Source: a virus
Strand: one strand, 5' to 3'
DNA: 40,785 nt
IMG/VR virus record: IMGVR_UViG_3300030105_000968
Location: 1-40,785 of that record
Part shown: positions 1,034 through 40,785 of the stretch, piece after piece
How the letters are laid out: each line of letters starts with the position of its first letter
Position numbering within the stretch: position 1 is the stretch's first letter
Notes under the pieces: model-generated
Seen by the model: the letters and a program-made list of their open reading frames with translations, nothing else
Told to the model about the DNA's origin: nothing
Database searches by the model: none
Program-made: the position numbers and the translations under genes

Positions 1034-1061
1034 ATTATGGGCCCTGTACAGATAATGTCAA
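1034..1061 (-). promoter_or_regulatory. Sigma70-like early promoter
   Basis: On the minus strand a perfect -35 box TTGACA (1061-1056) is followed after 16 bp by CATAAT (1039-1034), which matches 5 of 6 bases of TATAAT. It points into the run of small early genes beginning at 974. It is the counterpart by position of the T7 A1-A3 promoters used by host RNA polymerase. Transcription would start about 7 bases below 1034. Confidence 0.75.
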
Positions 1062-1147
1062 TGGAATTCATTTCAATACGGAAAGAAAAACAAAAAAACA
1101 ATAGGTAGCTTATTGAGGCTGGAAACAAACGCCACTATCTATAGGAC

Positions 1148-23170: not shown

Positions 23171-23191
23171 CTTATGGGGCAACCTTTGATT
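23171..23191 (-). promoter_or_regulatory. Recurring phage element, diverged copy 5
   Basis: On the minus strand ATCAAAGGTTGCCCCATAAG overlaps the last codons and stop of phoH. It matches the core of the other copies except for one base in the core (TTGCCC instead of TTGCAC) and lacks the downstream stem seen elsewhere. Its place before the structural block is where a phage promoter would be expected. The match could partly be coincidence, because it is constrained by coding sequence. Confidence 0.35.
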
Positions 23192-23894: not shown

Positions 23895-23896
23895 GT

Positions 23897-24850: not shown

Positions 24851-25113
24851 GCAGCATTCCTAAGTTGAAAGAATCCTTCATGCTCTGGAGACTCATCCAT
24901 AAACTTTTTAGCGTAATGAGGACTCCACCCATTAGGAATTTTATAATCCCCTCCAGAGTCCAATAATGTTTCCCATCTTAAAGCGTGGAATATAGCCCTT
25001 GCACTCCATCTATTACGGACTGCTAATGCTTTCAATGCATACCTTCTAAACCCTTCATAAATCTCAGGATGCTCGGCATCAAACACCAAGAAGCTTTCGT
25101 GGTTAAATTTCAT
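24847..25113 (-). CDS. Conserved hypothetical protein between nrdA and nrdB, 88 aa
   Basis: The start at ATG 25113 (MKFNHESFLVFDAEHPEIYE) is chosen because AAGGA lies just upstream and overlaps the nrdA stop; an earlier start would run deep into nrdA. The protein reads FDAEHPEIYEGFRRYALKAL, SARAIFHALRWETLLDSGGD, YKIPNGWSPHYAKKFMDESP and ends near EGFFQLRN. I recognise this pattern (YxxFxxxA..A..SARAI.xRxRWxTxxxSGGxxKxxNxWxPxYAxxFMxxxP.xxGFF) from small proteins widespread in bacteria and phages, with no function known to me. Its insertion between the two reductase subunits, overlapping both, suggests co-expression with them. Confidence 0.78.
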   Translation of the reverse strand: MKFNHESFLVFDAEHPEIYEGFRRYALKALAVRNRWSARAIFHALRWETLLDSGGDYKIPNGWSPHYAKKFMDESPEHEGFFQLRNAA

Positions 25114-25117
25114 TCTG

Positions 25118-26878: not shown

Positions 26879-27095
26879 TGAGCCACTCCGTTGTGTGACT
26901 GATGCTTTTAAAACCTACCAGCCTTTCACCTGTCTTAGCATTCAATAAGGTGGGGACACTCATAACCTTGTACTTGATAGCCTCGCCAATGTTCTGACCA
27001 ATGTTAATTTCATGGTAGGGAATGTCCATGCTATTCATAACTTGGGTCACAGCTTTGCATGGCGCACACCCTTCAGTGTAAAATTTTATAATCAT
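26862..27095 (-). CDS. Small thioredoxin/glutaredoxin-like protein, 77 aa
   Basis: I choose ATG 27095 (MIIKFYTEGCAPCKAVTQVM) because RBS GGGAGAAATAAT precedes it. The protein has a CAPC redox motif near the N-terminus, the cis-proline segment MSVPTLLNAKTGERLVGF, and the short length of glutaredoxin-type phage redoxins. It overlaps the start of nrdA by 17 bases, so its likely job is to re-reduce the reductase. T7 borrows host thioredoxin as a polymerase processivity factor, but this small protein is placed with the reductase and not with the polymerase. Confidence 0.9.
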   Translation of the reverse strand: MIIKFYTEGCAPCKAVTQVMNSMDIPYHEINIGQNIGEAIKYKVMSVPTLLNAKTGERLVGFKSISHTTEWLNDNQD

Positions 27096-27265
27096 ATTAT
27101 TTCTCCCATAACAGTACACGTCCGTTGTGGAATAGGACTGCACCTCCAATGCCAATCTCCATCCCAATACTCCCAAACAGTCCCGTCATCACATAACGCT
27201 GTTAAAGTTCTGAAATGGTCTTCATCTTCTGGGGTCTCAATAATTTGAATTATTTTTCTAGTCAT
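27092..27265 (-). CDS. Hypothetical protein, 57 aa
   Basis: A short ORF that fills the gap between the DUF3310 gene and the redoxin gene. It starts at ATG 27265 with GAGAAATAAT upstream and ends in a TGA that overlaps the redoxin ATG (ATGA), a strong sign of a real coupled cistron. The protein is acidic, with many tryptophans: MTRKIIQIIETPEDEDHFRT, then a DDGTVWEYWDGDWHWRCSPI segment. This reads like a small beta-hairpin domain seen in phage proteins, but I cannot name a function. Confidence 0.72.
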   Translation of the reverse strand: MTRKIIQIIETPEDEDHFRTLTALCDDGTVWEYWDGDWHWRCSPIPQRTCTVMGEII

Positions 27266-28869: not shown

Positions 28870-30637
28870 TAAATTCTCCATCTAGTGGACATTTGAACTT
28901 GAAGATACTGGTGACTTCTTTGATTGAAGCGACAGCTATCTCACCTACCTGTTGGGCAACGTCTGCCCTACACGCAACTTGGATTTCATCGTGGACCCAT
29001 GCACACATTGCAAAGTCTTTATCCCACCCATGCTGCAAACCTGCTGACCTCATTGACTTAACAAATTGGACCAGCCACTGCTTACAAATAATGCCGCCTG
29101 CACTTTGAAGCAACGCATTCAATGCTGAGTGTGAACTCCTGATATGGACACGCCTGCGGTCCAAGCCATAAATATAACCACGACCAGAGCTAGACATCAC
29201 TTGGTCACGCAGCTTGGCAAGCGCAGGTGTCTTGGCTAAGAATCTTTCCTTGATAGCCTTGCCCTGCTTCCTACCACCGCCTACCAGTTCACCAATCAGT
29301 TGGTCACCTCCGCCATAATTAAAAGCGTAGATGAATCGTTTTGCTGATGGTCTGTCAGGCAGGCCTGCTGCTAGTTGGTTGGTTGTGTGGATGTCACCAT
29401 CAAGGACAACATTCACATACTTACCACCATCATAAGCAGCCATGAAATGCGCGAGGCATCTCAATTCTAGGCCAGAAGCATCTGCACCCATGAGCTTCCA
29501 TCCTTTAGGGACAGTGAATAACTCACGACACTCTTGACCATAGGGTGCAGAGAGTGAAGGCACTTGTGCAATGTTGGGGTATGCGTGTGTTGCCCGTCCT
29601 GTGACAGCACCATTGGGATTGATGGAGCCATGAATCTTTCCATCCTTCACAACCTTCAACCAGCCTTGCGCTCCGTCAGACAACTGAGCGATGCGCTTCT
29701 GTAGCATGAAGTATTCAGCCATGACCTTAGCTTCAGGGAAGGGGAGTCCCGTCAGCGTAGTCTCATCAACCTTAGCTTGCCCACTCTTGGTGAACTCTTT
29801 AGGTTTCCATCCACGCACTTTCACTAAGCGGTCTGCTATTTGATTGCGAGATGATGGGTTGAACTCCATGATTGTGATGGGTGTGTAAGCACAACCAGAC
29901 ACCACAGACGCACGGGTTATATCTTTATAGTTGACTGTCCTAGCAGGTGTCTTGAGAGGACCTGCAATAATCCAAGGCTTAAACAAACCATCTAGCTTTG
30001 CTCTGATGTCTGTCCTCTTGGCAGATAGCTCACGATATAATAGTGCAGCCTTCTTCTCATCAAACACAAATCCATTGCGCTCTTGCTTTGCCATAATCCA
30101 AGCCACTTGATGCTCAAGCTTTAATGCCTGTTCACTGTAGTCTTGTTTGATTATCTCTGCGTACAGGTCAGCCGTTACTTCAACGTCCTGTTGGCAGTAG
30201 GTTAGCATCTCTTCAGAGAACACATCCCATGCAGATTCTTGCTGAGCGTAGTCTCCTTTGAGGTTGCCTAAGCGATAGCCCCACGCCTTTAAAGAGTGGG
30301 ACCCAAACATCTTTCTTGGAAATCCTGGCTCGTGTTCTAAGCGGACAGCATCGTCCTCTTTAATGCTGGACCAAATCAATCTCACACACACCAATGTGTC
30401 TAACACTGATGGTGATTTGAATGATGGGTAAAGCATCTTGATAGCAGGTACATCAAACTTAATTCCGTTGTGAGCTATTAACTCATCAGCAGATTCTAGT
30501 AGCTTGATGCCCTTGGCTATCTCATTGGGACGGAAGGAATGAACCTCACCTGTGTCAACATCCTTAGCCACGATACAGTGGATACACGTTAGTTCATCCA
30601 GCAATCCGTTGGTTTCAATATCGACAATGAGCTTCAT
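28838..30637 (-). CDS. DNA polymerase, family A, with 3'-5' exonuclease
   Basis: The 599-aa replicative polymerase has an N-terminal proofreading exonuclease with ExoI DIETNG (D6, E8), ExoII HNGIKFD and ExoIII YCQQDVEVT (D151). The polymerase domain has motif A GADASGLELR (D386), motif B RPSAKRFIYAFNYGG (R429, K433, Y437) and motif C VHDE (H549, D550). It is about 100 residues shorter than T7 gp5 (704 aa), so the thumb insertion that binds thioredoxin in T7 may be reduced or absent. Tyr437 is at the site equivalent to E. coli F762 and T7 Y526. The start has RBS AGGGAAAAATT. It follows primase-helicase as in T7. Confidence 0.97.
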   Translation of the reverse strand: MKLIVDIETNGLLDELTCIHCIVAKDVDTGEVHSFRPNEIAKGIKLLESADELIAHNGIKFDVPAIKMLYPSFKSPSVLDTLVCVRLIWSSIKEDDAVRLEHEPGFPRKMFGSHSLKAWGYRLGNLKGDYAQQESAWDVFSEEMLTYCQQDVEVTADLYAEIIKQDYSEQALKLEHQVAWIMAKQERNGFVFDEKKAALLYRELSAKRTDIRAKLDGLFKPWIIAGPLKTPARTVNYKDITRASVVSGCAYTPITIMEFNPSSRNQIADRLVKVRGWKPKEFTKSGQAKVDETTLTGLPFPEAKVMAEYFMLQKRIAQLSDGAQGWLKVVKDGKIHGSINPNGAVTGRATHAYPNIAQVPSLSAPYGQECRELFTVPKGWKLMGADASGLELRCLAHFMAAYDGGKYVNVVLDGDIHTTNQLAAGLPDRPSAKRFIYAFNYGGGDQLIGELVGGGRKQGKAIKERFLAKTPALAKLRDQVMSSSGRGYIYGLDRRRVHIRSSHSALNALLQSAGGIICKQWLVQFVKSMRSAGLQHGWDKDFAMCAWVHDEIQVACRADVAQQVGEIAVASIKEVTSIFKFKCPLDGEFNVGDNWADTH

Positions 30638-30646
30638 AATTTTTCC

Positions 30647-32290
30647 CTAGAAAGCAGCCATCAAATCCTCACAAGGAACTATGTCAAACACAGTCTGCTC
30701 GTAGAGATGTCCAGTTGCTTGGTTGTAGTTGAGTGGAATAGTCATGCCAGTTGCTTGACCTGTGTAGCGGTCCTTGAGAACACGGAAGGTAGTAGTCTGC
30801 CTGTCCTTTATATTCTCAGCCTGTTGGTCACGCTCCATGCCAAACATATAGTGACACCAGAAGCCGATAGCTCGACTGCCTTTGAAGTGTCTGATTGATA
30901 CACGGCCACCCTCTTCGTGAGGTTTGCCATCAGGAGTAGCGAGGTGAGACACCATCGTGATGATGATACCTAGTCTCTTGGAAATCTTAGCGATGTCCGA
31001 AGTGATACGCTCCAACTCTATGCGCTCATCAACACCCTGCCCTGTGGCTAGTGCTGTTAAGTGGTCAATGTAGAAGATACGAATACCTTCAGCGTGGTGC
31101 ATATACTCGATGTTAGATTTGACAACATCCCACTCACAGACCCCGAAGGAATCATAGAGGCGAATCATGTCTGACTCTTCTAAAGCATCAATAGCTTCAC
31201 TGCGCTGCTCAACTGTCCAATCACCATCTGGTATATGGAACAATTTGCTAGCGTGTTTACCTGCTAAACGAATGGCTGTCTCAGTAGGCATCTGCTCTAG
31301 AAAGAACACACCTACCCTCTCCTTCAACACTTGCATATCGTAGATGATTTGTTGTGTTAGGAAATCAGTCTTGCCTACACCAGTTCCAGCACCCAGACAA
31401 TAAACTTCACCGTACCTACGGCCATAAGTCTTATCGTTGAGTGTCTTCAGGAACCAAGGCAGGCCCCATTCCACAGGCTTGTCTAGTTCTGCACGGATGT
31501 CTTTAAGACTTACGATACCATCAGGCCTGTAGGTCTTAGCGTTCCATATTGCATCCATAACTAGACGATGCTTACCAGCTAGCAAGGCTTCGTTGGCATC
31601 CTTAAAGCCATTGATGTTCCCTATCTTGCACTTGCCTGCCTCAAACAGTGGAGCGCAAGCTTTGGCTGCTGCCTCACCTGCTGCATCTCCATCCATAAGT
31701 AGGATAATTTCTTGGAAGTCATTAAAGTAACTCATGTTTGCAGCAATGGATTTAGCTGCACCAGCCGCACCATTTGGTACGGATATAACAGGCCACTTGT
31801 TGTCTTGTATCTGCGAGATACTCATTGCATCGATGCTGCCTTCACAGATTACTAGCTTCTTACCTGATGCAAATAGGTTAGTGCCGAACATAGGCATCTG
31901 ACTGAAGTCTCCCAAGATAGGGAAGCTCTTATCAGCCGTGCGTAATTGCTGCGCGACCAGCTTACCTTCCGTGTTGTGGAGTGGGCAGATGTGAACGGCT
32001 TGTCCATTGTGGCTACCAACCTTGTAACCGAAGTGGCGGGCTGTCTCTTCAGAGATACCTCGCTGTCTAAGTGAACGGACTTCACCATCTATCAATGAAC
32101 TTGCCATGCGTGTACTCCTACTAACAGTTTTAATATCTCCACCCTCATCAGGCCACTCCATGTGGTTACAGTTGAGAGAGAAGCAGTAAGCCCTGCCTGA
32201 TGCATAACGCACTAGGTTGTCGCGTGAGTTGCAGCTAGGGCAACTCTCACGTCCAACCATAGGGCTATCATCTTGGTCGCGCTTAGACAT
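30647..32290 (-). CDS. Primase-helicase (T7 gp4-like)
   Basis: The 547-aa bifunctional protein starts with a zinc finger (C17, C20, C36, C41) that reads the priming site. It continues with a TOPRIM primase (E150 in LVICEGSID; D200/D202 in LMDGDAAG) and ends with a RecA-like hexameric helicase (Walker A GAGTGVGKT at 300-308, Walker B IFYIDH at 405-410). The C-terminus is EDLMAAF; in T7 gp4 an acidic tail with a terminal Phe contacts the DNA polymerase, and the same arrangement is present here. The gene overlaps the small HTH gene upstream (TAATG), and its stop is 9 bp before the polymerase start. Confidence 0.97.
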   Translation of the reverse strand: MSKRDQDDSPMVGRESCPSCNSRDNLVRYASGRAYCFSLNCNHMEWPDEGGDIKTVSRSTRMASSLIDGEVRSLRQRGISEETARHFGYKVGSHNGQAVHICPLHNTEGKLVAQQLRTADKSFPILGDFSQMPMFGTNLFASGKKLVICEGSIDAMSISQIQDNKWPVISVPNGAAGAAKSIAANMSYFNDFQEIILLMDGDAAGEAAAKACAPLFEAGKCKIGNINGFKDANEALLAGKHRLVMDAIWNAKTYRPDGIVSLKDIRAELDKPVEWGLPWFLKTLNDKTYGRRYGEVYCLGAGTGVGKTDFLTQQIIYDMQVLKERVGVFFLEQMPTETAIRLAGKHASKLFHIPDGDWTVEQRSEAIDALEESDMIRLYDSFGVCEWDVVKSNIEYMHHAEGIRIFYIDHLTALATGQGVDERIELERITSDIAKISKRLGIIITMVSHLATPDGKPHEEGGRVSIRHFKGSRAIGFWCHYMFGMERDQQAENIKDRQTTTFRVLKDRYTGQATGMTIPLNYNQATGHLYEQTVFDIVPCEDLMAAF

Positions 32291-32481
32291 TAGAGTGAGT
32301 AGCTAGCGTAAGCGCAGCCACGTACACCAGTCTTCATGTTTACGTTAATGACAGTGCCTTGCTTAGCAAGCGTGTGTACTACAGCAGCTAGACGGGTGAT
32401 GCCATACAGGCCTATCGCTTCAATAGAAGTAAGTGAACGGCCAGTGTTAAGGTGCTTCATAACTTGTTTAGATTGCGTCAT
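32290..32481 (-). CDS. Small HTH protein (HTH_39-like), 63 aa
   Basis: The sequence QVMKHLNTGRSLTSIEAIGL YGITRLAAVVHTLAKQGTVI (split here only for display) matches small winged helix-turn-helix proteins common in phages (LxxGxSITxxEAxxxYGxTRLxAxIxxLRxxG). It is the first gene below one of the recurring phage elements and a UUCG hairpin, and it is coupled by TAATG to the primase-helicase. RBS GAGAGAAAAATTT. Possible roles are autoregulation of the operon or assistance in replication; nothing in the sequence decides this. Confidence 0.82.
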   Translation of the reverse strand: MTQSKQVMKHLNTGRSLTSIEAIGLYGITRLAAVVHTLAKQGTVINVNMKTGVRGCAYASYSL

Positions 32482-32519
32482 AAATTTTTCTCTCGAAAGT
32501 TGAGTTCATAAGAATGATG

Positions 32520-32535
32520 ACCCTCCGAAGAGGGC
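32520..32535 (-). terminator. UUCG-capped hairpin below the amidase gene
   Basis: On the minus strand CCCTC-TTCG-GAGGG forms a 5-bp stem with a C(UUCG)G cap, one of the most stable RNA tetraloops. No T-run follows directly, so it is either a weak terminator or an mRNA end-stabilising/processing structure. Confidence 0.55.
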
Positions 32536-32538
32536 CTA

Positions 32539-32572
32539 ACGGTTTGCTTACCGTGATGGTGCAACCTTTGCT
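32539..32572 (-). promoter_or_regulatory. Recurring phage element, copy 2 (candidate promoter)
   Basis: On the minus strand AGCAAAGGTTGCACCATC overlaps the amidase stop by two bases and runs on into the hairpin ACGGT-AAGCAA-ACCGT. By eye it matches the element below the RNA polymerase gene (34210-34243) at 32 of 34 positions. It stands just upstream of the HTH/primase/polymerase operon, where a middle-gene promoter for the phage RNA polymerase would be expected. Confidence 0.5.
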
Positions 32573-32993
32573 AACTGAGCCACTCTTTAACATCAAAGGA
32601 TGGGCACTGTTTCTGCACATCAGGGAGGTCCCTGTGTCCTAGAACTTCAGTGTTTGGGTAGGACAGTTGCAAGGTAGTGATTAAGTCCGACAGTGTGTCG
32701 AACTGTATTGGTGTAAAATTATTTTCAGAAATGTTGACATCATCTTCGGTGACACCACCGACCAATGAGATGCCAATAGAGTTGTGGTTGTAGCCACGGG
32801 CGTGTGCACCTACATCATCTATGTGCCGCCCATCCTCCATTGTTCCATCACGCCTGATTATAATTTGGTAACCACATCCCAGAAATCCACGATGACGATG
32901 CCATGCATCCACCTGTGTAAATCCTATATCCATGCTAGGGCGTGTAGCCGTACAGTGGATGATTATGTAGTCAGTTGTTTTTCGCTTAGCCAT
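32571..32993 (-). CDS. N-acetylmuramoyl-L-alanine amidase (T7 lysozyme-like)
   Basis: I choose ATG 32993 (MAKRKTTDYIIIHCTATRPS) with AAAGGGAG upstream; the longer frame runs into endonuclease sequence. The 140-aa product has the zinc ligands H13, H120 and C130 (T7 lysozyme H17, H122, C130), plus Tyr42 and Lys128 at the T7 catalytic positions. The usual segments are WHRHRGFLGCGYQIIIRRDG, GAHARGYNHNSIGISLVGG and GHRDLPDVQKQCPSFD. It cuts the amide bond between MurNAc and the peptide and causes lysis together with the holin at 3430-3825. In T7 the same protein also restrains the phage RNA polymerase; whether this happens here is unknown. It overlaps the endonuclease gene by 31 bases. Confidence 0.95.
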   Translation of the reverse strand: MAKRKTTDYIIIHCTATRPSMDIGFTQVDAWHRHRGFLGCGYQIIIRRDGTMEDGRHIDDVGAHARGYNHNSIGISLVGGVTEDDVNISENNFTPIQFDTLSDLITTLQLSYPNTEVLGHRDLPDVQKQCPSFDVKEWLS

Positions 32994-33376
32994 TCGATTG
33001 GTATACTCCCTTTGGCGAATTTGAAATCGTGTTTCAAACACCACATTGCGTATGTAGTCTTTGAAGTTTTAGAGATTCTTTGTTTGGGATTACTGAACAC
33101 AAACCTTATGTCCAGATGAGGGTGTTGGTCCTTGATGAGCAGATGCTTGGCTCTATCGTCAGTCTGAAATCTTCCCTTTGTTTCTATAATCATTGTTCCG
33201 ATTACAAAGTCAGGTGTGTACTTCGATTGACGGGCGGGTCTTGTGTATTCAATCTTCTGTTCTTCATATGAGAAAAGGATGCCTTGGCTGGTAAGCTCAT
33301 CGGCAACCCGCTTCTCAAGTCCAGAACGGAACCCATACTTCAGACCAACAAAATAGTCTTTAGAAGGGTACGTCAT
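32963..33376 (-). CDS. Endonuclease I (T7 gp3-like Holliday junction resolvase)
   Basis: The 137-aa protein shows the PD-(D/E)xK active site in T7 spacing: E21 (SGLEKRVADEL), D56 (YTPDFVI), E65 and K67 (IIETKG). T7 endonuclease I uses E20, D55, E65 and K67. It resolves branched DNA before packaging and breaks down host DNA. It overlaps the SSB gene by 17 bases and the amidase gene by 31, keeping the T7 order 2.5-3-3.5. Length is close to the T7 protein (149 aa). Confidence 0.95.
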   Translation of the reverse strand: MTYPSKDYFVGLKYGFRSGLEKRVADELTSQGILFSYEEQKIEYTRPARQSKYTPDFVIGTMIIETKGRFQTDDRAKHLLIKDQHPHLDIRFVFSNPKQRISKTSKTTYAMWCLKHDFKFAKGSIPIEWLSEKQLTT

Positions 33377-33983
33377 CGAACTCCGCTTCTAATGAGGGTG
33401 CTGAAGTTGGAGATACAATTGGCTGGCTAGCTGTGAACTCAAAGCCATCTTCAACATCGAAGCCTGACGCTGCATTCCCTGCTCCACCACCACCATCCAA
33501 TGCTTCAATAAGCTGGACAGTCTTCATGCGTAGTGATACACCAGCACCAACTAATCCTGTGTAGTAGGTGATAGGTTGGAAGCCAATGCGAACACGGCTA
33601 CCATTCCAAGTCGGAACCTCTTCAGTAATAACCTGCTTACGGGCATCGATGACCAACGGCTTCTGGGTGAAGTCACCATTGCGTCCATTGACAAGGGCCT
33701 TGAGCTTGAACTTGAAGGACACATCACCTGTCTCATCATCGATGGTGTAAGGTGGGTTGGTTTTGATTTTATCCTTGGACTTACCTGTCTCTTCCATAGC
33801 GTCAGCAATAGCTTTCTCCATGTACTCATCAAGCTGAGCCATTAGAGGTAGAGCAACTGCGTTCTCCATGTTGAGGGTGCATCCGAACTCCCCATTTTCG
33901 TTGAACTTATAATCGGGGGTGAACGCCTTAAGCCATTCGGTCCGGCCTTCAGGTGTGATGATTTGTGGTATTTTATTTGACAT
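33360..33983 (-). CDS. Single-stranded DNA-binding protein (T7 gp2.5-like)
   Basis: The 207-aa product starts MSNKIPQIITPEGRTEWLKA, has an OB-fold-like middle (GDVSFKFKLKALVNGRNGDF; RVRIGFQPITYYTGLVGAGV SLRM) and ends with a flexible acidic tail, EAEFDDVPF. In T7 gp2.5 the acidic tail with its final Phe binds the DNA polymerase and is essential; the same tail design is present here. The gene order (RNA polymerase, small gene, SSB, endonuclease) matches T7. RBS AGGATAACT precedes the ATG. Confidence 0.93.
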   Translation of the reverse strand: MSNKIPQIITPEGRTEWLKAFTPDYKFNENGEFGCTLNMENAVALPLMAQLDEYMEKAIADAMEETGKSKDKIKTNPPYTIDDETGDVSFKFKLKALVNGRNGDFTQKPLVIDARKQVITEEVPTWNGSRVRIGFQPITYYTGLVGAGVSLRMKTVQLIEALDGGGGAGNAASGFDVEDGFEFTASQPIVSPTSAPSLEAEFDDVPF

Positions 33984-34020
33984 AGTTATCCTAGTTGTCA
34001 GGTGCGCTTAGTGCGCTGGT

Positions 34021-34149
34021 TTAATTTCGGCAAGCTCTAAGGAACTCACTGATAATGATTCCTTGATTTATCAATGCAGCGATAAGGTCAAGTGGTAAGG
34101 GCTGGCCATTCATTGTTAGAAGGCAAGCTTGGGTCTGTTCAAATGTCAT
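34021..34149 (-). CDS. Hypothetical protein, 42 aa
   Basis: A short ORF between the RNA polymerase terminator and SSB. It starts at ATG 34149 with RBS GGAGAAAGACC and encodes MTFEQTQACLLTMNGQPLPL followed by DLIAALINQGIIISEFLRAC and RN. It is helical with an amphipathic centre. No family is recognised. The perfect RBS and the position directly after a promoter/terminator pair support expression. T7 also has very small genes in this interval (1.1-2), including inhibitors of host proteins; any such role here is speculation. Confidence 0.65.
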   Translation of the reverse strand: MTFEQTQACLLTMNGQPLPLDLIAALINQGIIISEFLRACRN

Positions 34150-34162
34150 GGTCTTTCTCCAT

Positions 34163-34190
34163 AAAAAAGCCCCCTGTTTTACGAGAGGGC
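34163..34190 (-). terminator. Terminator below the RNA polymerase gene
   Basis: On the minus strand GCCCTCTCG...CAGGGGGC (34190-34169, G-T pair included) is followed by six T. It probably ends transcription by host RNA polymerase of the early region, comparable in role to the T7 early terminator. A copy of the recurring phage element lies just upstream of it, so phage transcripts would have to read through. Confidence 0.8.
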
Positions 34191-34209
34191 ATTAGCTGTT
34201 TAGCTGGTT

Positions 34210-34243
34210 ACGGTTTTCTTACCGTGATAGTGCAACCTTTGCT
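34210..34243 (-). promoter_or_regulatory. Recurring phage element, copy 3 (candidate promoter)
   Basis: On the minus strand AGCAAAGGTTGCACTATC leads into the hairpin ACGGT-AAGAAA-ACCGT. It agrees with the element at 32539-32572 at 32 of 34 positions, although the flanks differ. It lies 37 bases below the RNA polymerase stop and heads the SSB/endonuclease/amidase operon. Confidence 0.5.
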
Positions 34244-34280
34244 CTACCCCAGTAAGGACACCACTTCAGTACGGAAACTA

Positions 34281-36866
34281 TTAGGCAAAAGAATAACGTG
34301 ATGATGCCGTAGCAGCTAGGTCCAGTGTGCCTTTACTAGGCGGCAATGGAATCTCTTCACGGTTCTCCGGTTTCATCTGGGCATTCAACTCTAAGTAGAG
34401 TCCATGCACAATGTCACCTGCCTGATACATCTCAACCATAGATTCTCTGATGATGTGCCAGAACTCATCAGTGTCCGCTGCATGTGTGGCGAATGAGTCA
34501 TGAATAAGACTGAAGCTGTTTATACCCTGCTCAGATTCTGCGGCCCTTGAGACTGTTAGCTGAAGGTGAGCAGCATCACAGCCATGAACCCAGTTAGGGG
34601 CCATTGCCTGTGCAGATTTGCGAGTGCATATCTGGTCAGTCGATTCCTTTAGCGTGAGGTAGACTAGGTTGCCATTGATGCTAGTCTTCACACGTCTGGG
34701 GTTGGTGTCGTAGTAACTTTGAACGACAGGGAATCCAAGCGGTGTTGTCCAACGTACAGGCATGGCATGGTGAGAACCATCAGGCATCTGGAACTTTTCC
34801 TTTGCCACCTTACTCGCAGCATCAGTGAGCCAATCCATAAGATGGGCTGGACGTTTGACTGAATCAACAACGGCATCCCAAAGCAACCTTGCAATGTAAC
34901 TAGATGCACGGTATCCGTTGTCATAACTGAACGGGAAATCCTTACCTGTCTTGTTACAGTCACGCATTAATGGATGCATCACATCGCTCTGTATTTGCTC
35001 CTTGAATCCGTACTGCTTGGAGCCATACGAATATGTCATGCAGCTACGTTTCGCATGGACCCTCCCGAAGCCATGCTTCAGCCACTCAAGTGCAAGCTCA
35101 GTATAATTTGGGACCCTCACACCCATGTTGTTGAGGATTGGAGCACCCCAATGTTCATGTGGTTGTTCGCTGTCCTTCCTTAGTTGCACCACCACTTTGT
35201 CAGCGACAATCTGGTAGAGGTCCATAGGCTTATCGACAGGTAGCAGGTTCACGTTCAGTGCTGTGCTGGCACATTGAGTAGCCATCGACAGGTGTTGAAG
35301 TCCACTCGCTGACCCATCAAGGGCGATAGGCAGGTGAGACACAAACGCATCACCCTGCTCAAGGAATCCTTTCCATTCCATAGCTGCTGCCATAAATTGC
35401 AAAGGCTTGTCAGCATCACACCACTGACGGTTCTCAAATGGATTCTCAACGCACTGCATAATCCAATGCTCGTTGTCCATCACCCACTGCACCCGTGCTT
35501 CAAGCGTGTCCTTATCTATCTTGTCAAACGCACCCGTGTTGGCTAGGTGAATGGCTAACCACCTCCAACCTGACTCACCTAAAGGCTTGCCATTTGCAAA
35601 CCGGAGGGTGGCTTTCATCTCGTCCGGTCCCATCCCATTGTAGGCACTGACCGCGTAGACACGACCACGGAAGTCGAGGTTGTATCCAAAGTAGAACTCA
35701 TCAAATTCGCTGAATTCCTGTGCAGTGGACATGGTACTACTGAAGGCTATTCTCTTGGCTGCACTCTCCCGATTGCTGGCCTCAATCCTGTTCTTCTCTT
35801 TGTAATACGCTGCCCATTGCTGTTTGGTTTCTAACTCAAAGTCCTCTTCTTTAGCTGACTCTTCATTGAAGCGAGGTGGGATTGAATTACACCACTCAAC
35901 ACCGTTGTCCCACATCTCATTGACGAGGTTCAGGATGTCCTTATTGACGGACCACGCTGTCCTCTGCATTGCGTTAACTGCATGGAGGACAACATCGATG
36001 TTGGTGTGTTTTAAATCTGCCATGTAGTTGTTGTTGTGAGTCTTCACAAAGCGAACAGGTCTACAGTAATGTGAATAATAAACACCGCCAGTTAGGTTCT
36101 CATAATTCCAATCTCTGGGCTGGATTACCAGAGGCTTATACTGGGGAGCAGTGAGGCCTATACGAGAGCATCTTTCGTCTATCCAATCCAATGTCTCAGG
36201 GGTAGCAACAAGCCTCTTCACGGTGTTGTGCTTGCCCTTAGATTCGGTTGTGATTTGGACTAAACCAACAGTCTCAATCAGGATTGTGAGAAGCTTTGAA
36301 CCAAGGTGCATTAGCTGTGCTTGTGACCAAGATTCCCAGTTGTTGATTGTCCCCTTTGAGGTTTCATCATTCATGGCGTTGATGATTATTGTCCTCTTCC
36401 AGTGACCCTCTTTACGACTTGAAGCATCGACCAGACGTTTCCATAACTTGGCATCTTGCTTTCGCAGGTCAGCCAATCTGAACTCGTCCTCAACCTGCTC
36501 TGCGGCCTTCTTAATTATGGATTGGAGCGTTCCATATTTGATTGATATTCCGTTGATTATAAACTTCATAAACACAAACCCAATCACGTTAGCATCACCA
36601 CCTGAGAGTAACAATCGAGCAGACCCACCACGTCCACCTCGGCCAACATCAGCATCCATGTATGATTGAATACCAGCACTGAATTTGGCTAGTCCATGTG
36701 TGAGCATAGCCTGTCCGTATTGTGTTCCAGATTCCCCCCTCTGAGTCTTCTGTTTGCTAATCTGTTTAGCCATCTTATTAACACCAACATCTCTCATTCT
36801 TTTCTCAATGAGTAGCTGTGAGTCCATCAACTTGTCACCTGTAATAATCGTTTCTAACTTAGACAT
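34281..36866 (-). CDS. Single-subunit phage RNA polymerase (T7 gp1-like)
   Basis: The 861-aa protein (T7: 883) shows every catalytic landmark: D517 (ALDGSASGLQHLS; T7 D537), R602, K606 and Y614 (RVHAKRSCMTYSYGSKQYGF; T7 R627, K631, Y639) and H789/D790 (SLIHDSF; T7 H811/D812). The C-terminus ends YSFA, like the FAFA foot of T7. The region about residues 710-760 is the counterpart of the promoter specificity loop and is diverged from T7, so it should read a different promoter. RBS GGAGAAGACTAA precedes the ATG. It is transcribed after the integrase/attP region, unlike T7, and its upstream region carries one copy of the recurring element plus a 17-bp inverted repeat. Confidence 0.98.
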   Translation of the reverse strand: MSKLETIITGDKLMDSQLLIEKRMRDVGVNKMAKQISKQKTQRGESGTQYGQAMLTHGLAKFSAGIQSYMDADVGRGGRGGSARLLLSGGDANVIGFVFMKFIINGISIKYGTLQSIIKKAAEQVEDEFRLADLRKQDAKLWKRLVDASSRKEGHWKRTIIINAMNDETSKGTINNWESWSQAQLMHLGSKLLTILIETVGLVQITTESKGKHNTVKRLVATPETLDWIDERCSRIGLTAPQYKPLVIQPRDWNYENLTGGVYYSHYCRPVRFVKTHNNNYMADLKHTNIDVVLHAVNAMQRTAWSVNKDILNLVNEMWDNGVEWCNSIPPRFNEESAKEEDFELETKQQWAAYYKEKNRIEASNRESAAKRIAFSSTMSTAQEFSEFDEFYFGYNLDFRGRVYAVSAYNGMGPDEMKATLRFANGKPLGESGWRWLAIHLANTGAFDKIDKDTLEARVQWVMDNEHWIMQCVENPFENRQWCDADKPLQFMAAAMEWKGFLEQGDAFVSHLPIALDGSASGLQHLSMATQCASTALNVNLLPVDKPMDLYQIVADKVVVQLRKDSEQPHEHWGAPILNNMGVRVPNYTELALEWLKHGFGRVHAKRSCMTYSYGSKQYGFKEQIQSDVMHPLMRDCNKTGKDFPFSYDNGYRASSYIARLLWDAVVDSVKRPAHLMDWLTDAASKVAKEKFQMPDGSHHAMPVRWTTPLGFPVVQSYYDTNPRRVKTSINGNLVYLTLKESTDQICTRKSAQAMAPNWVHGCDAAHLQLTVSRAAESEQGINSFSLIHDSFATHAADTDEFWHIIRESMVEMYQAGDIVHGLYLELNAQMKPENREEIPLPPSKGTLDLAATASSRYSFA

Positions 36867-36926
36867 TTAGTCTTCTCCAATTTAACTTCAATTCTGAAAC
36901 CATTAACCCACGGCAGAGCCACGGGC

Positions 36927-36976
36927 TGGGCGTAAGCCCATGGTGCAACCTTTGATATTAAGGTCTTGCTAATATA
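36927..36976 (-). promoter_or_regulatory. Recurring phage element, copy 4 (candidate promoter/origin)
   Basis: On the minus strand the extended motif (TATATTAGC, a few bases, CCTTAATATCAAAGGTTGCAC) is followed by the 5-bp hairpin TGGGC-TTAC-GCCCA. The motif is nearly the same as the copy below the terminase gene (29 of 34 positions by eye). It lies 61-110 bases upstream of the RNA polymerase start and could let the phage polymerase read its own gene or act as an origin. Confidence 0.5.
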
Positions 36977-37032
36977 ACTATGAGCCAGCATTTGGCCCTC
37001 ATTTGTCCTGCCTACTGTCCTCTTAAAGTTGA

Positions 37033-37049
37033 ACTGAAATACTTTCAGT
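37033..37049. promoter_or_regulatory. 17-bp perfect inverted repeat, candidate operator
   Basis: ACTGAAA-TAC-TTTCAGT is a perfect 7-3-7 inverted repeat about 170 bases upstream of the RNA polymerase start and between attP and that gene. Its size suits a dimeric regulator such as the MarR-type protein encoded at 38350-38721. No T-run follows, so a terminator is less likely. The link to that regulator is inference. Confidence 0.45.
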
Positions 37050-37126
37050 ACGGGTAAACATCGTGCAAAGTAAGGCCACACCTGTGGAAAAGAACAGATG
37101 CAGCCTTGGTACTATCTATCGAATAA

Positions 37127-37151
37127 TGGCGCGCCCGAGAGGATTCGAACC
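37127..37151 (-). other. attP: Candidate attP core: 3' end of a tRNA-Arg
   Basis: On the minus strand GGTTCGAATCCTCTCGGGCG plus CGCCA reads as the T-loop, 3' T-stem, acceptor strand and CCA end of a tRNA. The acceptor strand CGGGCGC-G-CCA matches proteobacterial tRNA-Arg genes such as E. coli tRNA-Arg(CCG). The 5' T-stem bases upstream (AAC) do not pair, so the similarity begins at GG and only the 3' end is present, as expected for an attachment site and not for a tRNA gene. It lies 40 bp below the integrase stop codon. Confidence 0.82.
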
Positions 37152-37190
37152 GTTAATCGACTCGACTGACGCATAGAATTCGTAGACATA

Positions 37191-38327
37191 TCAGGCACTT
37201 AGTGCTGGTAGTATATCATTTGGCAAGGCATTTGGGGACACTCTGTCCCTGCTATTGTCCTTGCCCTGCAGTGCTGCTATCGCTCCTTGTAATGCTTCGT
37301 CCGTGACCTTCGTATACTTTGCAGTCTGGGTAATCTTGGCATGTCCCATTAGGCTCTGGATGACTTTCATTTGGGCCTTAGCACTCACTAGCCTAGTGGC
37401 AAACGTGTGTCGCATGCCATACCAAACCTCTTCATCTGCCCATTGCATTGTGGGACGCACAGACTCATTCCAGAAGCGAGTACAGTGGTACTTATAGTCA
37501 AGCTTAATGAAGGGCTGGAAGTCCACTAGCTGTCCTGTGACGCGCTTGCTGAGTATGCGCTTAACCCTGTCTGTCATCGGAACATCCCTCGGCTTTTTAG
37601 TCTTGGAATATTCTTTGGGGATGCGGATAACAGGCAGCCCCTTAATGTCAGATTTAATCCAACTGCAATGTAGCTGGTGAGCCTCACGCCAAGGCCTCAT
37701 GCCTGTATCAAAAAGTAAGATTATGAAGTCAGCCAACAACTCATTTGTCTTCTGATAAGCAAAAGGAAAAGCCCGTGCTAGCTCTATGATTTCAACCTCT
37801 TCGGCTGGGCTGTAATAACGCATCCTAGAGTTGTCACCTACGGGCTCCCACTCAATAAATGGTGGGTTTTTCATCCGCCCCTGATGGACCATGTGCTTTA
37901 TCATCGATGACAAGCACGTCAGTTTGTTGTTGATGGTTTTGGGCTTATTGCCCTTGTCTCTCAATGTCCTGATGTATTCATCAACAAGCAACGTGTCAAT
38001 GTCAGTCAGTTTGGTTATACGCTTCTCATCAATGAAGAATCGAGTTAGCGCATTCCAGTATTGAATGACCTTGGTTTGGTAACCATCTGTCTCATATTTC
38101 CAGCGGTGCTCCCACGTTGCCTCATAAGCAAAGTGCAGGGTCAAGCCAGTGCCTTTAGCAAGCTGCTTAACGTCTGGTCTTAATCCCCTCGCCATATCTG
38201 CTATGGCTTGCAATTCAATTGCAACAGCCTCACTCCGTTGGTCTAGACCCAGTACAAAGTGAACGAAGCGATGACCGCCCCGTTGCACCTTGATTTGGTA
38301 GCCCGTTTTCCTTTCGTAAATAGCCAT
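37191..38327 (-). CDS. int: Tyrosine recombinase (phage integrase)
   Basis: The 378-aa integrase has an N-terminal arm-type part (residues 1-60), a SAM-like core-binding domain (about 65-165: YWNALTRFFIDEKRITKLTD; NNKLTCLSSMIKHMVHQGRM) and a catalytic domain with R211 (DTGMRPWREA), K243/K244, R306 (YGMRHTFATR), H329 (LMGHAKI) and nucleophile Y338 (AKYTKV). In the HxxR box the usual His is Tyr303, an uncommon but known kind of replacement. RBS AAGGAG precedes the ATG. The gene lies between a MarR-type regulator and a tRNA-derived attP, so this T7-like phage very probably can integrate. Confidence 0.95.
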   Translation of the reverse strand: MAIYERKTGYQIKVQRGGHRFVHFVLGLDQRSEAVAIELQAIADMARGLRPDVKQLAKGTGLTLHFAYEATWEHRWKYETDGYQTKVIQYWNALTRFFIDEKRITKLTDIDTLLVDEYIRTLRDKGNKPKTINNKLTCLSSMIKHMVHQGRMKNPPFIEWEPVGDNSRMRYYSPAEEVEIIELARAFPFAYQKTNELLADFIILLFDTGMRPWREAHQLHCSWIKSDIKGLPVIRIPKEYSKTKKPRDVPMTDRVKRILSKRVTGQLVDFQPFIKLDYKYHCTRFWNESVRPTMQWADEEVWYGMRHTFATRLVSAKAQMKVIQSLMGHAKITQTAKYTKVTDEALQGAIAALQGKDNSRDRVSPNALPNDILPALSA

Positions 38328-38349
38328 GATTTTGGCTCCTTATTCCAGT

Positions 38350-38721
38350 TTAAAAATGAGAGAGTAATTCCTTAGAAAAGGCCTTTCCTTTCTCGCTAAG
38401 TTCAACATATCGCACCCGCCTGTCCATTGGGTCGGAGCGTAGTTCAACAAGGTTTAGTGGTGCGACTTTACGCCTCGCCACTGTAATGTCAGAGAGTGCA
38501 GCTACACACCTGCTAACATTTGAACCTGATATGTCTAGGCCTACAGCTATCTGTTTGCCCGTGACTGACCCACGTCTAGCCACAATTAAAAATACACGCA
38601 TTTGCTGGGCGGTCATTTCCGCATACATGGCGTTAAACGATTCCAACGCTCCTGCCATTCCTGCCAATGTTTTTTGTTCACTTTTTGAAAAGCTCAATAC
38701 CTGATTTGTACTGTCACTCAT
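38350..38721 (-). CDS. MarR-family transcriptional regulator
   Basis: The 123-aa protein has the MarR winged-helix layout: dimerisation helix at the N-terminus, helices MTAQQMRVFLIVARRGSVTG and KQIAVGLDISGSNVSRCVAA (recognition helix), then the wing with VELRSDPMDRRVRYVELSEK; the DPxDRR word is diagnostic. It would bind a palindromic operator as a dimer. RBS GAGGTAATATT. It is 22 bp upstream of the integrase gene and probably co-transcribed with it. No CI- or Cro-like repressor is seen in the window, so this is the best candidate regulator of the lysis-lysogeny choice. Confidence 0.88.
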   Translation of the reverse strand: MSDSTNQVLSFSKSEQKTLAGMAGALESFNAMYAEMTAQQMRVFLIVARRGSVTGKQIAVGLDISGSNVSRCVAALSDITVARRKVAPLNLVELRSDPMDRRVRYVELSEKGKAFSKELLSHF

Positions 38722-38743
38722 AATATTACCTCGTTACTTCATT

Positions 38744-38950
38744 TTATCGCTGTGGCTCAAAAGGCCGGTTGGCTTGGTTCTTTGGAAACACGCCTTTATT
38801 TTTCGCATAAAATCTCAGGCAGCTATGTTTCGGTTTTCTGAAACAAACATCTAAGACCATCCATAGCCAATCAGGCCACTGGTCCGCGCGCATCCAAGCG
38901 TACTTCTTAACACGTCCCGTGTTAGCTCTTACCATTTTCATCATAATCAT
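38744..38950 (-). CDS. Hypothetical basic protein, 68 aa
   Basis: Strongly basic and tryptophan-containing (MVRANTGRVKKYAWMRADQW; FRKPKHSCLRFYAKNKGVFP), without a named domain. The first ATG (38950) abuts the stop codon of the upstream gene. An in-frame ATG at 38944 is better spaced from the GGAG in the upstream gene's end and may be the true start. It lies just above the MarR-type regulator. Its charge suggests nucleic-acid binding, for example an excisionase-like role next to the integrase, but it lacks a recognisable HTH pattern. Confidence 0.6.
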   Translation of the reverse strand: MIMMKMVRANTGRVKKYAWMRADQWPDWLWMVLDVCFRKPKHSCLRFYAKNKGVFPKNQANRPFEPQR

Positions 38951-39142
38951 TCACTCCATGTTTTTGTTGTTCTTAAGTAGTGATGCTAGTTCAACTTTAT
39001 CAGACTTAGACAAAAGTTGGTTTGGTCCCCATTCCAGCATTAGCTCTTTGCTCCATGCCCTCGCAAAAAAGTAATTCTTCGGCCTCAGCTCGATTTCGAA
39101 AAACTCTCCAATACGTGCACTCATTATTTGATTTGATAACAA
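38951..39142 (-). CDS. Hypothetical protein, 63 aa (TTG start)
   Basis: The start is TTG 39142, supported by GGAG six bases upstream; the in-frame ATG at 39124 has no RBS. The sequence is MLSNQIMSARIGEFFEIELR, PKNYFFARAWSKELMLEWGP and KSDKVELASLLKNNKNME. It is a small soluble protein of mixed character with no recognised family. It abuts the basic 68-aa gene and may be co-transcribed with the regulator and integrase. Confidence 0.55.
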   Translation of the reverse strand: MLSNQIMSARIGEFFEIELRPKNYFFARAWSKELMLEWGPNQLLSKSDKVELASLLKNNKNME

Positions 39143-39238
39143 TTATTACTCCAGTTGGGCGACAACCTCTGTATTAAGATTGCCGTTGTCCTGCATTCTA
39201 TTCTGTATTGAATACTTGAGCAAATAAAAAACTGCCCA

Positions 39239-39319
39239 TCATTCAGAGGTTAAATTTCTAACCGCCGACCTATCACTGTCCAAAATCAACTCAACTAAAT
39301 CTTCAATTGAATAATCCAT
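39239..39319 (-). CDS. Possible peptide, 26 aa
   Basis: A very short ORF with an acidic amphipathic sequence, MDYSIEDLVELILDSDRSAV followed by RNLTSE. An AGGTAGGGACAGCAT stretch before the ATG could be an RBS. It fills part of the gap 39143-39403. Because random short ORFs are frequent, I treat it as tentative. The rest of that gap carries only the hairpin at 39373-39396. Confidence 0.35.
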   Translation of the reverse strand: MDYSIEDLVELILDSDRSAVRNLTSE

Positions 39320-39372
39320 ATGCTGTCCCTACCTTTAAGTTATTATTTAAGTGGCTCCCAAATAGGACCCCA

Positions 39373-39396
39373 AAAAGACCGTGCTAAAGGTCTTTT
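39373..39396. terminator. Bidirectional terminator-like hairpin
   Basis: AAAAGACC/GGTCTTTT forms a perfect 8-bp stem with an 8-base loop (GTGCTAAA). T-runs are found on both strands. It lies 7 bp below the stop of the 65-aa gene and resembles the hairpin at 40149-40170 in stem and loop. Confidence 0.75.
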
Positions 39397-39403
39397 AAGT
39401 GTC

Positions 39404-39601
39404 TCACTTGGCAAGGCGGACCCTGCTAGATATGTCAGCAATGAGGACCCTGCTAGCCTCGCATGTGTACCTGCTAGCAGCACGGGACCCCATGGCGTAA
39501 TGGTGCGTTATTGTCAGGCCCTCGCCTGCAGTTATGGCTTTAGTTTTGATGGCATGCGCCACCATATTGCGTAGGCGTTTTTGCGTTTGGTAGTTGCTCA
39601 T
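39404..39601 (-). CDS. Hypothetical early protein, 65 aa
   Basis: Start at ATG 39601 (MSNYQTQKRLRNMVAHAIKT) with AAAAAAGGACC upstream; longer readings lack an RBS and overlap the neighbouring gene. The product is small and basic (KAITAGEGLTITHHYAMGSR; YTCEASRVLIADISSRVRLA). Nothing diagnostic is visible. It is followed by a strong hairpin terminator, so it ends an early transcription unit containing the three genes above it. Confidence 0.65.
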   Translation of the reverse strand: MSNYQTQKRLRNMVAHAIKTKAITAGEGLTITHHYAMGSRAASRYTCEASRVLIADISSRVRLAK

Positions 39602-39621
39602 TTTATTAGGTCCTTTTTTGG

Positions 39622-39846
39622 TTATCGTTTGGCATATGCCATTAAATCTTTGATGTATTGAGATGGATTGTTGTGGCTTGCCATGTTGCCGCACCATACC
39701 GCCACGCAAGACCCACTAGGGCTAATTCCGCACCATATACCGCGCGCACCATTTGGCCCTGCAGTTATCCATTGGCCAGCCTGCAGGCCTTCACGCTCGG
39801 TTGTTGTTGCAGCCCACACGTCTACTGTTTTTCTATAACGTGACAT
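39622..39846 (-). CDS. Hypothetical early protein, 74 aa
   Basis: Start at ATG 39846 (MSRYRKTVDVWAATTTEREG) with RBS AAAAGGAAATAACC. The sequence continues LQAGQWITAGPNGARGIWCG and SPSGSCVAVWCGNMASHNNP. The WITAGPNGARGIWCG and VAVWCGN words suggest a small beta-sheet domain with two cysteines. No family is recognised. It overlaps the 90-aa gene by 14 bases. Probably one of several host-directed early proteins. Confidence 0.68.
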   Translation of the reverse strand: MSRYRKTVDVWAATTTEREGLQAGQWITAGPNGARGIWCGISPSGSCVAVWCGNMASHNNPSQYIKDLMAYAKR

Positions 39847-40105
39847 GGTTATTTCCTTTTGATTTTTTTGTTGGTGGGTATGCGCCTGCAGCCAAATGTG
39901 CAAGCTTGATTAAAATGTCATTTTTAACAGCGACATTTTCTATTTGTTCTGCAGTAACCCAAACATCACCGCGCTTGTATATGGCAGTAATTGGCGCATC
40001 ATCTTGTGATGCTATTTGTTGCTCGCGTTTGCTATAGCTTGGAAAACTGCCAAGCTCACGGCCCCATATGGCGATGCATTTATAAGCGTGTGGTAAATAC
40101 GTCAT
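39833..40105 (-). CDS. Hypothetical early protein, 90 aa
   Basis: Starts at ATG 40105 with RBS AAGGAAAAATCAAA. The protein reads MTYLPHAYKCIAIWGRELGS, FPSYSKREQQIASQDDAPIT, AIYKRGDVWVTAEQIENVAV and ends AYPPTKKSKGNNHVTL. The pattern 'AIYKRGDVWVTAEQIEN' resembles short nucleic acid- or protein-binding folds but I cannot assign it. It follows a hairpin terminator and starts the three-gene unit 40105-39404. Confidence 0.66.
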   Translation of the reverse strand: MTYLPHAYKCIAIWGRELGSFPSYSKREQQIASQDDAPITAIYKRGDVWVTAEQIENVAVKNDILIKLAHLAAGAYPPTKKSKGNNHVTL

Positions 40106-40148
40106 TTTGATTTTTCCTTTTATTAATTAATTTACTTTAGGTCCTCAT

Positions 40149-40170
40149 AAAAGCCGCGCTACAGGCTTTT
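40149..40170. terminator. Bidirectional terminator-like hairpin
   Basis: AAAAGCC/GGCTTTT is a perfect 7-bp stem with an 8-base loop (GCGCTACA), 21 bases below the stop of the 42-aa membrane peptide gene. It resembles the hairpin at 39373-39396 in stem, loop length and loop sequence. Confidence 0.72.
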
Positions 40171-40190
40171 AAAATGAGCTAATGCATTCC

Positions 40191-40319
40191 CTAAGGTTTA
40201 GGACCTAGTAGCGTCACAACAAGGCCTGATAGGCCTAGAACCACCACTAGCAAACCAAGTGCTAGCAATGGCCAAGTGTGGACCTGAAAAACAGTGTCCA
40301 ATATTGTTATTGATTCCAT
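40191..40319 (-). CDS. Small membrane peptide, 42 aa
   Basis: A short ORF with ATG 40319 preceded by GGAGATTTTACAAT. It encodes MESITILDTVFQVHTWPLLA followed by LGLLVVVLGLSGLVVTLLGP and KP: one strong transmembrane helix with a short polar N-terminus. It sits between the window-edge gene and the 40149-40170 hairpin. Small hydrophobic early peptides of phages can act at the host membrane (superinfection exclusion, ion leakage, holin-like effects), but no function can be assigned from sequence. The clean RBS and composition make it a likely gene. Confidence 0.7.
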   Translation of the reverse strand: MESITILDTVFQVHTWPLLALGLLVVVLGLSGLVVTLLGPKP

Positions 40320-40346
40320 ATTGTAAAATCTCCTGAACTGAATGTA

Positions 40347-40785
40347 TTAGTGAATATTATAGGAAACGTGGGCAACATCATGGGACCAACAAGCGCGACA
40401 ATCTTGGCATCCATCCTGCAGTTTTTCACTAGCAGGGCAAGCTTGGCCACGTCCACCATTAGCAGGCGTATGGACCCCACTAGTGAGACCTTTAAACTTG
40501 TTCTTAACTTGGTTAACCATGTCATCACTAAGTCTTAGAGCGCAATTTACAAGGCCTGCTAGTGGACGCGACAAGATGGGTTCCTTTGTTGGAATCCAAT
40601 GGTGGACGTGCAGAGTGCGGTTGATACAATCTAGGACCATTGCAACATAGGCCGCGCTAAATAAATCGCCTGCAGAGTGCCAACGGAAAAACGATTCCTT
40701 TGTCATGCATAAGGTAAACGCCGCTACCCATAGGTCATAAATGATTGACGATTCTAGAGCCAATTGGATAACGTCCCATCGGCGT
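40347..40785 (-). CDS. Hypothetical early protein, cut by the window edge
   Basis: The reading frame stays open to the last base of the window. A TTG at 40763 could start a 138-aa protein, but the frame continues upstream with protein-like residues (RRWDVIQ), so the true start may lie beyond the edge or across the join with base 1. The protein has helical segments (SSIIYDLWVAAFTLCMTKES; AGDLFSAAYVAMVLDCINRT) and a cysteine-rich C-terminus (ACPASEKLQDGCQDCRACWS) with four cysteines in about 20 residues, which might bind a metal. No family is recognised. It probably belongs to the early gene set. Confidence 0.6.
   Translation of the reverse strand, partial: RRWDVIQLALESSIIYDLWVAAFTLCMTKESFFRWHSAGDLFSAAYVAMVLDCINRTLHVHHWIPTKEPILSRPLAGLVNCALRLSDDMVNQVKNKFKGLTSGVHTPANGGRGQACPASEKLQDGCQDCRACWSHDVAHVSYNIH

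Follow-up and report, generated by a model that had tools for sequence, protein, structure and literature searches.

T7-like phages serve as the textbook example of a strictly lytic family. For the Pseudomonas phage LUZ100, the available portions of the published report propose that a MarR protein represses the phage promoter before the polymerase gene, and describe co-transcription of the MarR and integrase genes, a terminator after integrase and a mapped order of P3, MarR, integrase, T4, phi1, polymerase and phi2 (PMC10134795). In the same portions, sites flanking the polymerase promoter are credited to Boeckman et al. 2022 (PMC10134795). For Helicobacter prophages, the accessible text of another paper outlines a comparable role of MarR, together with AT-rich palindromes close to promoters (PMC11321410). 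In HTVC022P, by contrast, MarR and polymerase are expressed together early in infection according to the sections consulted of a third paper (PMC12753301), and this early co-expression counts against reading the protein as a repressor. We found no tested MarR operators in the literature searched, which consisted partly of excerpts and mostly lay outside subscription papers.

The stretch analysed here, referred to as the window, is a viral IMG/VR record of 40,785 bases with a T7-like gene set (polymerase, SSB, endonuclease I, amidase, primase-helicase, DNA polymerase, holin and terminase), and no near DNA relative of its positions 30000-40785 was found among 50,697 phage records. It appears to represent a temperate T7-like phage that can seemingly lodge in the host chromosome. 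The gene for a MarR-type regulator of 123 aa (38350..38721, minus strand) is directly upstream of a tyrosine integrase gene (37191..38327, minus strand; Pfam Phage_integrase 1.3e-13, phrog_1), and both are upstream of the gene for a T7-like single-subunit RNA polymerase (34281..36866, minus strand; Pfam RNA_pol 1.1e-95, phrog_414). Judged by sequence, a predicted terminator follows the integrase gene and a phage promoter motif precedes the polymerase gene, as in the lysogeny modules of temperate T7-like phages. Because the L004 and L008 contigs run from terminase through the early genes to MarR, the two ends of the window adjoin. Connected as in these relatives, the map reads early promoter, early genes, MarR, integrase, attP core, hairpin, O1, phi1, O2, polymerase, O3 and phi2, where O1 to O3 are candidate operators and phi1 and phi2 are phage promoter motifs.

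Searching viral contigs for MarR, integrase and polymerase yielded about a dozen distinct groups of relatives; as far as their contigs extend, the order is MarR, integrase, attP core, hairpin, polymerase. MarR is accompanied by the integrase in 21 of 26 records, and the remaining five begin downstream of MarR. A scan of genome contigs gave five loci, one of them a close relative (L031), which is a phage contig binned in a Bermanella MAG at 296x coverage and has integrase, core and polymerase contiguous. Among other observations on these sequences, IMGVR_UViG_3300020376_000009 (L027:1-1173, from a 27,722-base viral contig) is 100% identical to residues 471-861 of the window polymerase, the polymerase match in L015:850-3292 is broken into two pieces in different frames, and L009:1-110 holds tandem repeats of CCTATTGACCAA upstream of the early genes. 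Elsewhere in the window, positions 23172-26878 encode a PhoH-like protein and both ribonucleotide reductase subunits, and a thioredoxin gene is at 26862-27176.

A sequence-only reading of this DNA had placed a MarR-family regulator with a DPMDRR motif beside the integrase, and this assignment is borne out. The motif is present in the ORF, which ends 22 nt from the integrase gene, and Pfam (MarR_2, 4.1e-8, 33.7 bits against a cut-off of 27), phrog_9665 (9.2e-22) and structure prediction agree. A profile built from 11 MarR relatives matches 2eth_A at 2.7e-11, and the AF2 model of the window protein (mean pLDDT 83.7) has the same best match in Foldseek (E 2.5e-5, TM 0.63/0.56), with MarR proteins among the best 50 matches. 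Members of the MarR family form dimers by means of their N- and C-terminal helices, recognise dyad operators and are often ligand-responsive. The model has an N-terminal helix at residues 13-33, its chain closes with a helix at 110-121, and the recognition helix reads SGSNVSRCVAALSD. With 123 aa the protein is short compared with the solved MarR matches, which mostly have 138-195 aa; the suggestion that it responds to a host metabolite gained nothing from our analysis, in which no ligand-related evidence was found. That reading had also seen no CI/Cro-like repressor, and indeed none of the 27 different ORFs of the window that were scanned with Pfam gives a CI/Cro-type match; as 108 ORFs were listed mechanically, this absence applies to the scanned ORFs and not to the window in general. 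The MarR-type protein is the sole good regulator found in the window, as had been stated.

Upstream of MarR, a tentative promoter, TTGCTC-17-TAGAAT (39195..39223, minus strand), contains the weak operator-like sequence TATTCAATACAGAATA, whose operator score is not significant (262 of 1458 segments score as high). The corresponding zones are weak across seven genomes (combined P 0.011). Two small ORFs, at 38744-38950 and 38951-39142, also lie upstream of MarR and have partial relatives in L002-L004 and L012, and at other loci inspection by eye showed a WMR..WP-like motif ahead of MarR. These small ORFs possibly belong to the switch proposed below. In L049, where the gap between integrase and polymerase is 1.8 kb, positions 616-1473 hold a reading frame of 285 aa that includes a MarR-like domain and has a long C-terminal extension.

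The attP core is a 25-nt sequence (37127..37151, minus strand) that is identical to the 3′ end of a tRNA-Arg gene. Of 28 records checked, 27 contain its last 24 nt, and the remaining one, L022, begins downstream. At all six host loci, ARAGORN predicts a tRNA-Arg where the core matches; the core is exact in five of them and has a single change in L068. Between the core and O1 is a terminator-like hairpin (37072..37107, minus strand; -20.2 kcal/mol, z -7.1), whose T-rich tail is interrupted in the window (TACTTTG). When 12 such regions were aligned and all but those of L007 and L009 were folded, the hairpin formed in 10 of 10.

Integration in the tRNA gene is seen in a relative, L020, rather than in the window, and at one junction (attL). 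From the core onward, L020 and L003 agree (99.86% identity across 6,596 nt), whereas of the 20 nt that precede the core only 5 are shared; these 20 nt of L020 match the host tRNA-Arg(acg) gene in L068 at 20 of 20 positions. Therefore, the polymerase gene of L020 stands behind a host tRNA gene, with the hairpin between them. The L010 contig, from the same metagenome, stops at the core after the integrase gene, and the two contigs (28,032 and 12,515 bases) sum to 40,547 bases. No prophage with both junctions was found, and in the MAG of L031 the core occurs on the phage contig only; a 36-nt tRNA-Arg pattern (at most two mismatches) is present in 10 of 274 genomes of that MAG's class. From the position of attP, we infer that integration separates MarR and integrase from the polymerase gene.

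The sequence-only reading had further proposed that a 7-3-7 palindrome before the polymerase gene, ACTGAAATACTTTCAGT, is a suitable dimer site for the regulator. The palindrome is at 37033..37049 as quoted and has a single copy in the record, even when two mismatches are allowed. However, the window holds six perfect 7-3-7 palindromes, compared with a mean of 2.84 and a maximum of 7 in 50 mononucleotide shuffles, so the palindrome by itself is unremarkable. Only one of its halves is shared with the dyad that recurs at other sites; that dyad is shifted by 8 bp to 37042..37057 (minus strand), where it reads TTACCCGTACTGAAAG and forms the candidate operator O1, which the palindrome overlaps. In L009, the shared half has switched type, whereas the other arm of the palindrome (TTCAGT) is unchanged. 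Since this arm ignores the switch and such palindromes occur at chance level, we rejected ACTGAAATACTTTCAGT as the operator itself. Comparison with relatives favours the shifted site as the better operator.

Three further candidate operators carry the same dyad, all on the minus strand: O2 (GTTTCAGAATTGAAGT, 36885..36900) is 18 nt before the polymerase ATG, O3 (GTTTCCGTACTGAAGT, 34263..34278) directly follows the polymerase stop codon, and a fourth (CTTTCCGTATTGAAAT, 1070..1085) is at the early promoter. When all 81,540 positions were ranked with a PWM made from 18 sites of relatives, the window being left out, the top four were, in order, O3, O2, the early-promoter site and O1, although these ranks mix conservation with recurrence because some of the sites in relatives are positional homologues of those in the window. 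The early-promoter site is in none of the PWM training sets. With the same motif symmetrised, O3 ranked 1st, the early site 2nd, O2 5th and O1 6th, and a symmetrised 21-site PWM differed only in placing O1 8th. Matrices from single sites were weaker (O2 only: O3 24th, O1 238th; O3 only: O2 6th, O1 17th). The pattern TTTCMGNAYTGAA, which was composed after the sites had been seen, occurs three times in the window (O2, O3 and the early site) compared with 0.03 expected. An operator-like sequence is also found at 38052-38067 within the integrase gene, with similar matches inside the integrase of L004, L008 and L012; these probably reflect coding conservation. The distance between O1 and O2 varies (133 to 207 bp across 11 groups) and does not correspond to whole turns, so a constant helical phasing was rejected.

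A phage polymerase promoter motif, ATCAAAGGTTGCACCAT, precedes O2 (phi1, 36940..36956, minus strand), and another, AGCAAAGGTTGCACTAT, follows O3 (phi2, 34227..34243, minus strand). This motif has five matches in the window (at most three mismatches), all on the minus strand, compared with 0.20 expected. Straight after phi1, at about 36929-36945, is an inverted repeat, ATGGGCTTACGCCCAG, that resembles ones in several relatives and is likely to form the 5′ hairpin of the phi1 transcript. The host promoter at the window O1 is degenerate. In the early region, a candidate host-type promoter, TTGACA-16-CATAAT (1034..1061, minus strand), has 11 of 12 consensus bases, and a scan for sites of this type found four in the window with 4.6 expected. 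The operator-like site is 8 nt upstream of it. Across five genomes, the early-promoter zones, whose sites are outside the training set, gave a combined P of 2e-6. Size-matched segments scored as high in 0 of 1555 cases for the window, 0 of 1569 for L012, 26 of 1569 for L004 and 79 of 1581 for L009, and the L008 zone has no site (768 of 1569).

In each genome O1, O2 and O3 align as one dyad, which is TTTCAGTACTGAAA-like in clade A. Outside clade A, the sequence of the dyad varies while its places hold, and the recognition helix of MarR varies too. In clade B, the dyad at all three operators is GTCTN8AGAC, with three exact matches each in L031, L044, L048 and L052, two each in L045 (whose contig ends in the polymerase gene), L050 and L051, and near but no exact matches in L047. 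The three matches in L048 and in L078 all correspond to O1, O2 and O3, with 0.14 and 0.21 expected, respectively. Clades A and B had already supplied the pattern when L071, L072 and L049 were examined, and the motifs of these three were first spotted by eye. L071 and L072 have TTGTCGA-type dyads at O2 and O3 (TTGTCGANNGACA in L072) and a half-site at O1, and two matches also arose in 3 of 200 shuffles. L049 has TTACAACTTAGTAG at O2 and TTACTACTTAGTAA at O3, with the shared pattern TTACNACTTAGTAR, and no O1 was identified there.

We compared the dyads flanking the polymerase gene in two ways. In a search restricted to the 65 nt preceding and the 40 nt following the gene, the O2-O3 pair was chosen in 10 of 12 group members, with 0-12 of 300 shuffles as good; L013 failed (77 of 300), and L072, whose O2 lies beyond the supplied zone, took another pair (7 of 300). 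In the other test, also of 12 genomes, a genome's own flanking dyads shared 11.2 identical bases compared with 9.8 when genomes were permuted (P 0.004) and 5.8 in sequence shuffles. Clade A alone gave P 0.31 (9 genomes), and all these P values are optimistic because the genomes are related; in the window and L050, the best pair was not an operator pair. The second test included L007 and L024 and excluded L047, L049 and L072, while the first included L049 and L072 and excluded L007, L024 and L047. Near-identical genomes were left out of both, namely L005, L008, L021 and L022 (like L006/L007), L015, L004, L020 and L028 (like L003), L031 (like L048), L043, L045, L052 and L078 (like L044), L051 (like L050) and L071 (like L072).

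The recognition helices vary between the operator types: most of clade A have SGSNVSRC or close to it, L009 has SGPNVSRC and L014 STPNVSRC, clade B has SKANASRT or SKANAART, L072 has SAPTVSRS and L049 has SAANASRT. L007 and L009 are 97% identical in integrase and 83% in polymerase, but 52% in MarR, and relative to L007 both O1 and O3 of L009 are changed, to TTAACAGTACTGTAAC and CTTACAGTACTGTATC. O2 of L009 retains the TTTCAG type although O1 and O3 have switched. This apparent co-change of operator and MarR is a correlation.

The recurrence of one motif around the polymerase gene is most readily explained if MarR is its repressor, but the same facts could have other causes. HTVC022P raises the question of whether MarR is instead a lytic regulator that aids the handover from host to phage polymerase, with promoter-near sites that activate or fine-tune; MarR is early there, together with polymerase, and the consulted part of that paper proposes a takeover role, citing P-SSP7 (PMC12753301). 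We consider this unlikely. MarR travels with the integrase in every record that does not begin downstream of it, O1 overlaps promoter-like elements in L012, L047 and L048 (by eye), and the positions of O2 downstream of phi1 and of O3 behind the stop codon fit repression. We give less credence still to the idea that the protein is the excisionase of the adjoining integrase, and that the dyads near attP are its arm sites or those of the integrase. A winged-helix protein encoded 22 nt upstream of an integrase would suit such a role, O1 and O2 are less than 270 nt from the attP core, and excisionases of the wHTH type exist, as the accessible text of one paper describes (PMC11963761). Yet the sites are not confined to the att region, the same dyad being found at O3, 2.9 kb from the core, and at the early promoter, about 4.7 kb away on the joined map; moreover, the fold search returned MarR proteins among its best 50 matches.

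Two readings would dispense with a DNA-binding protein. T7 messages are processed at hairpins, and the arms of O2 can pair in RNA (in the window with two G-U pairs included), so the dyads might act as hairpins in the polymerase mRNA, one in its leader and one in its trailer, for instance as processing sites. The motif also recurs at O1 and at the early promoter, however, and its arm sequences are common to the sites within one genome, which hairpins do not require; we rate this slightly below the excisionase. That the palindrome and dyads are chance, and their conservation mere common descent, would accord with the palindrome count (six found, 2.84 expected, within the shuffle range) and the P of 0.31 for clade A alone. 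Against it stand the dyads that differ in sequence but keep their places from clade A to clade B, L071/L072 and L049, and the low chance levels in the PWM ranking, pattern counts and O2-O3 pair tests, and we consider it highly improbable.

We therefore return to repression by MarR, which is probably the lysogeny repressor of both the polymerase gene and the early promoter in this temperate T7-like phage. The target named by the sequence-only reading, the polymerase gene, is supported by the recurrence of the motif and its co-change in relatives, but was drawn too narrowly: with additional sites present at O2, at O3 and next to the early promoter, the early genes are a probable target as well. 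A MarR dimer would bind the dyads at all four places. At O1 it would block transcription of the polymerase gene by the host enzyme, at O2 it would stop the self-amplifying phi1 transcript, at O3 it may hinder passage into phi2 or the start at phi2, and at the early promoter it would silence the early genes. Integration at tRNA-Arg would sever the polymerase gene from the early and MarR promoters that lie upstream of it; a host tRNA gene would then precede it, separated from it by the hairpin that the phage brings along, likely a terminator. Upon loss of the repressor, host polymerase would yield some phage polymerase, which would then drive its own synthesis from phi1.

In the sections available to us, these features resemble LUZ100 in the order of MarR and integrase, the terminator after integrase, and the phage promoters directly upstream of and after the polymerase gene (PMC10134795). 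LUZ100 differs in carrying tRNA genes, in its promoter sequences and in showing, in our dyad-pair tests, no dyad common to the two flanks of its polymerase gene; its operator sequences are not named in the consulted text (PMC10134795). In a test of seven isolates, the dyad pair was absent in six and weak in YIMV22061 (1 of 30 shuffles as good), with a downstream stretch of just 30 nt for S-SRP02. A six-isolate test found no flanking pair in LUZ100, BB8, YIMV22061, HTVC019P or HTVC121P, and a pair in CRP-361 (0 of 300 shuffles as good) was rejected as operators, being a repeated promoter-like TAGGTTGCACCTAA. HTVC019P-type pelagiphages and Roseobacter CRP phages share the order MarR, integrase, polymerase, with MarR so annotated, but their MarR proteins are 24-40% identical to that of the window (27 records). 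Phages of the Agrobacterium phage Pasto type, as described in the accessible parts of two papers (PMC10134795, PMC11321410), are alike in having a MarR protein proposed as lysogeny repressor and sites that flank the polymerase promoter.

The idea that MarR represses the polymerase is thus right in outline and already in print; the operator set, its apparent co-change with the regulator and the predicted attP-terminator layout are new. More speculatively, the system could provide an immunity comparable to that of lambda, in which at least four to five repressor-operator specificities are swapped as MarR alleles with matching operator changes, and in which repressor bound at the operators on either side of the polymerase gene, 2.6 kb from each other, might hold that gene in a loop. 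If so, integration itself would cut the polymerase gene off from its upstream promoters, and the attP-borne terminator would shield it from the host tRNA promoter. By offering exact candidate operators, a natural allele exchange and predicted immunity groups, this locus makes the published MarR hypothesis testable with short DNA probes and reporters.
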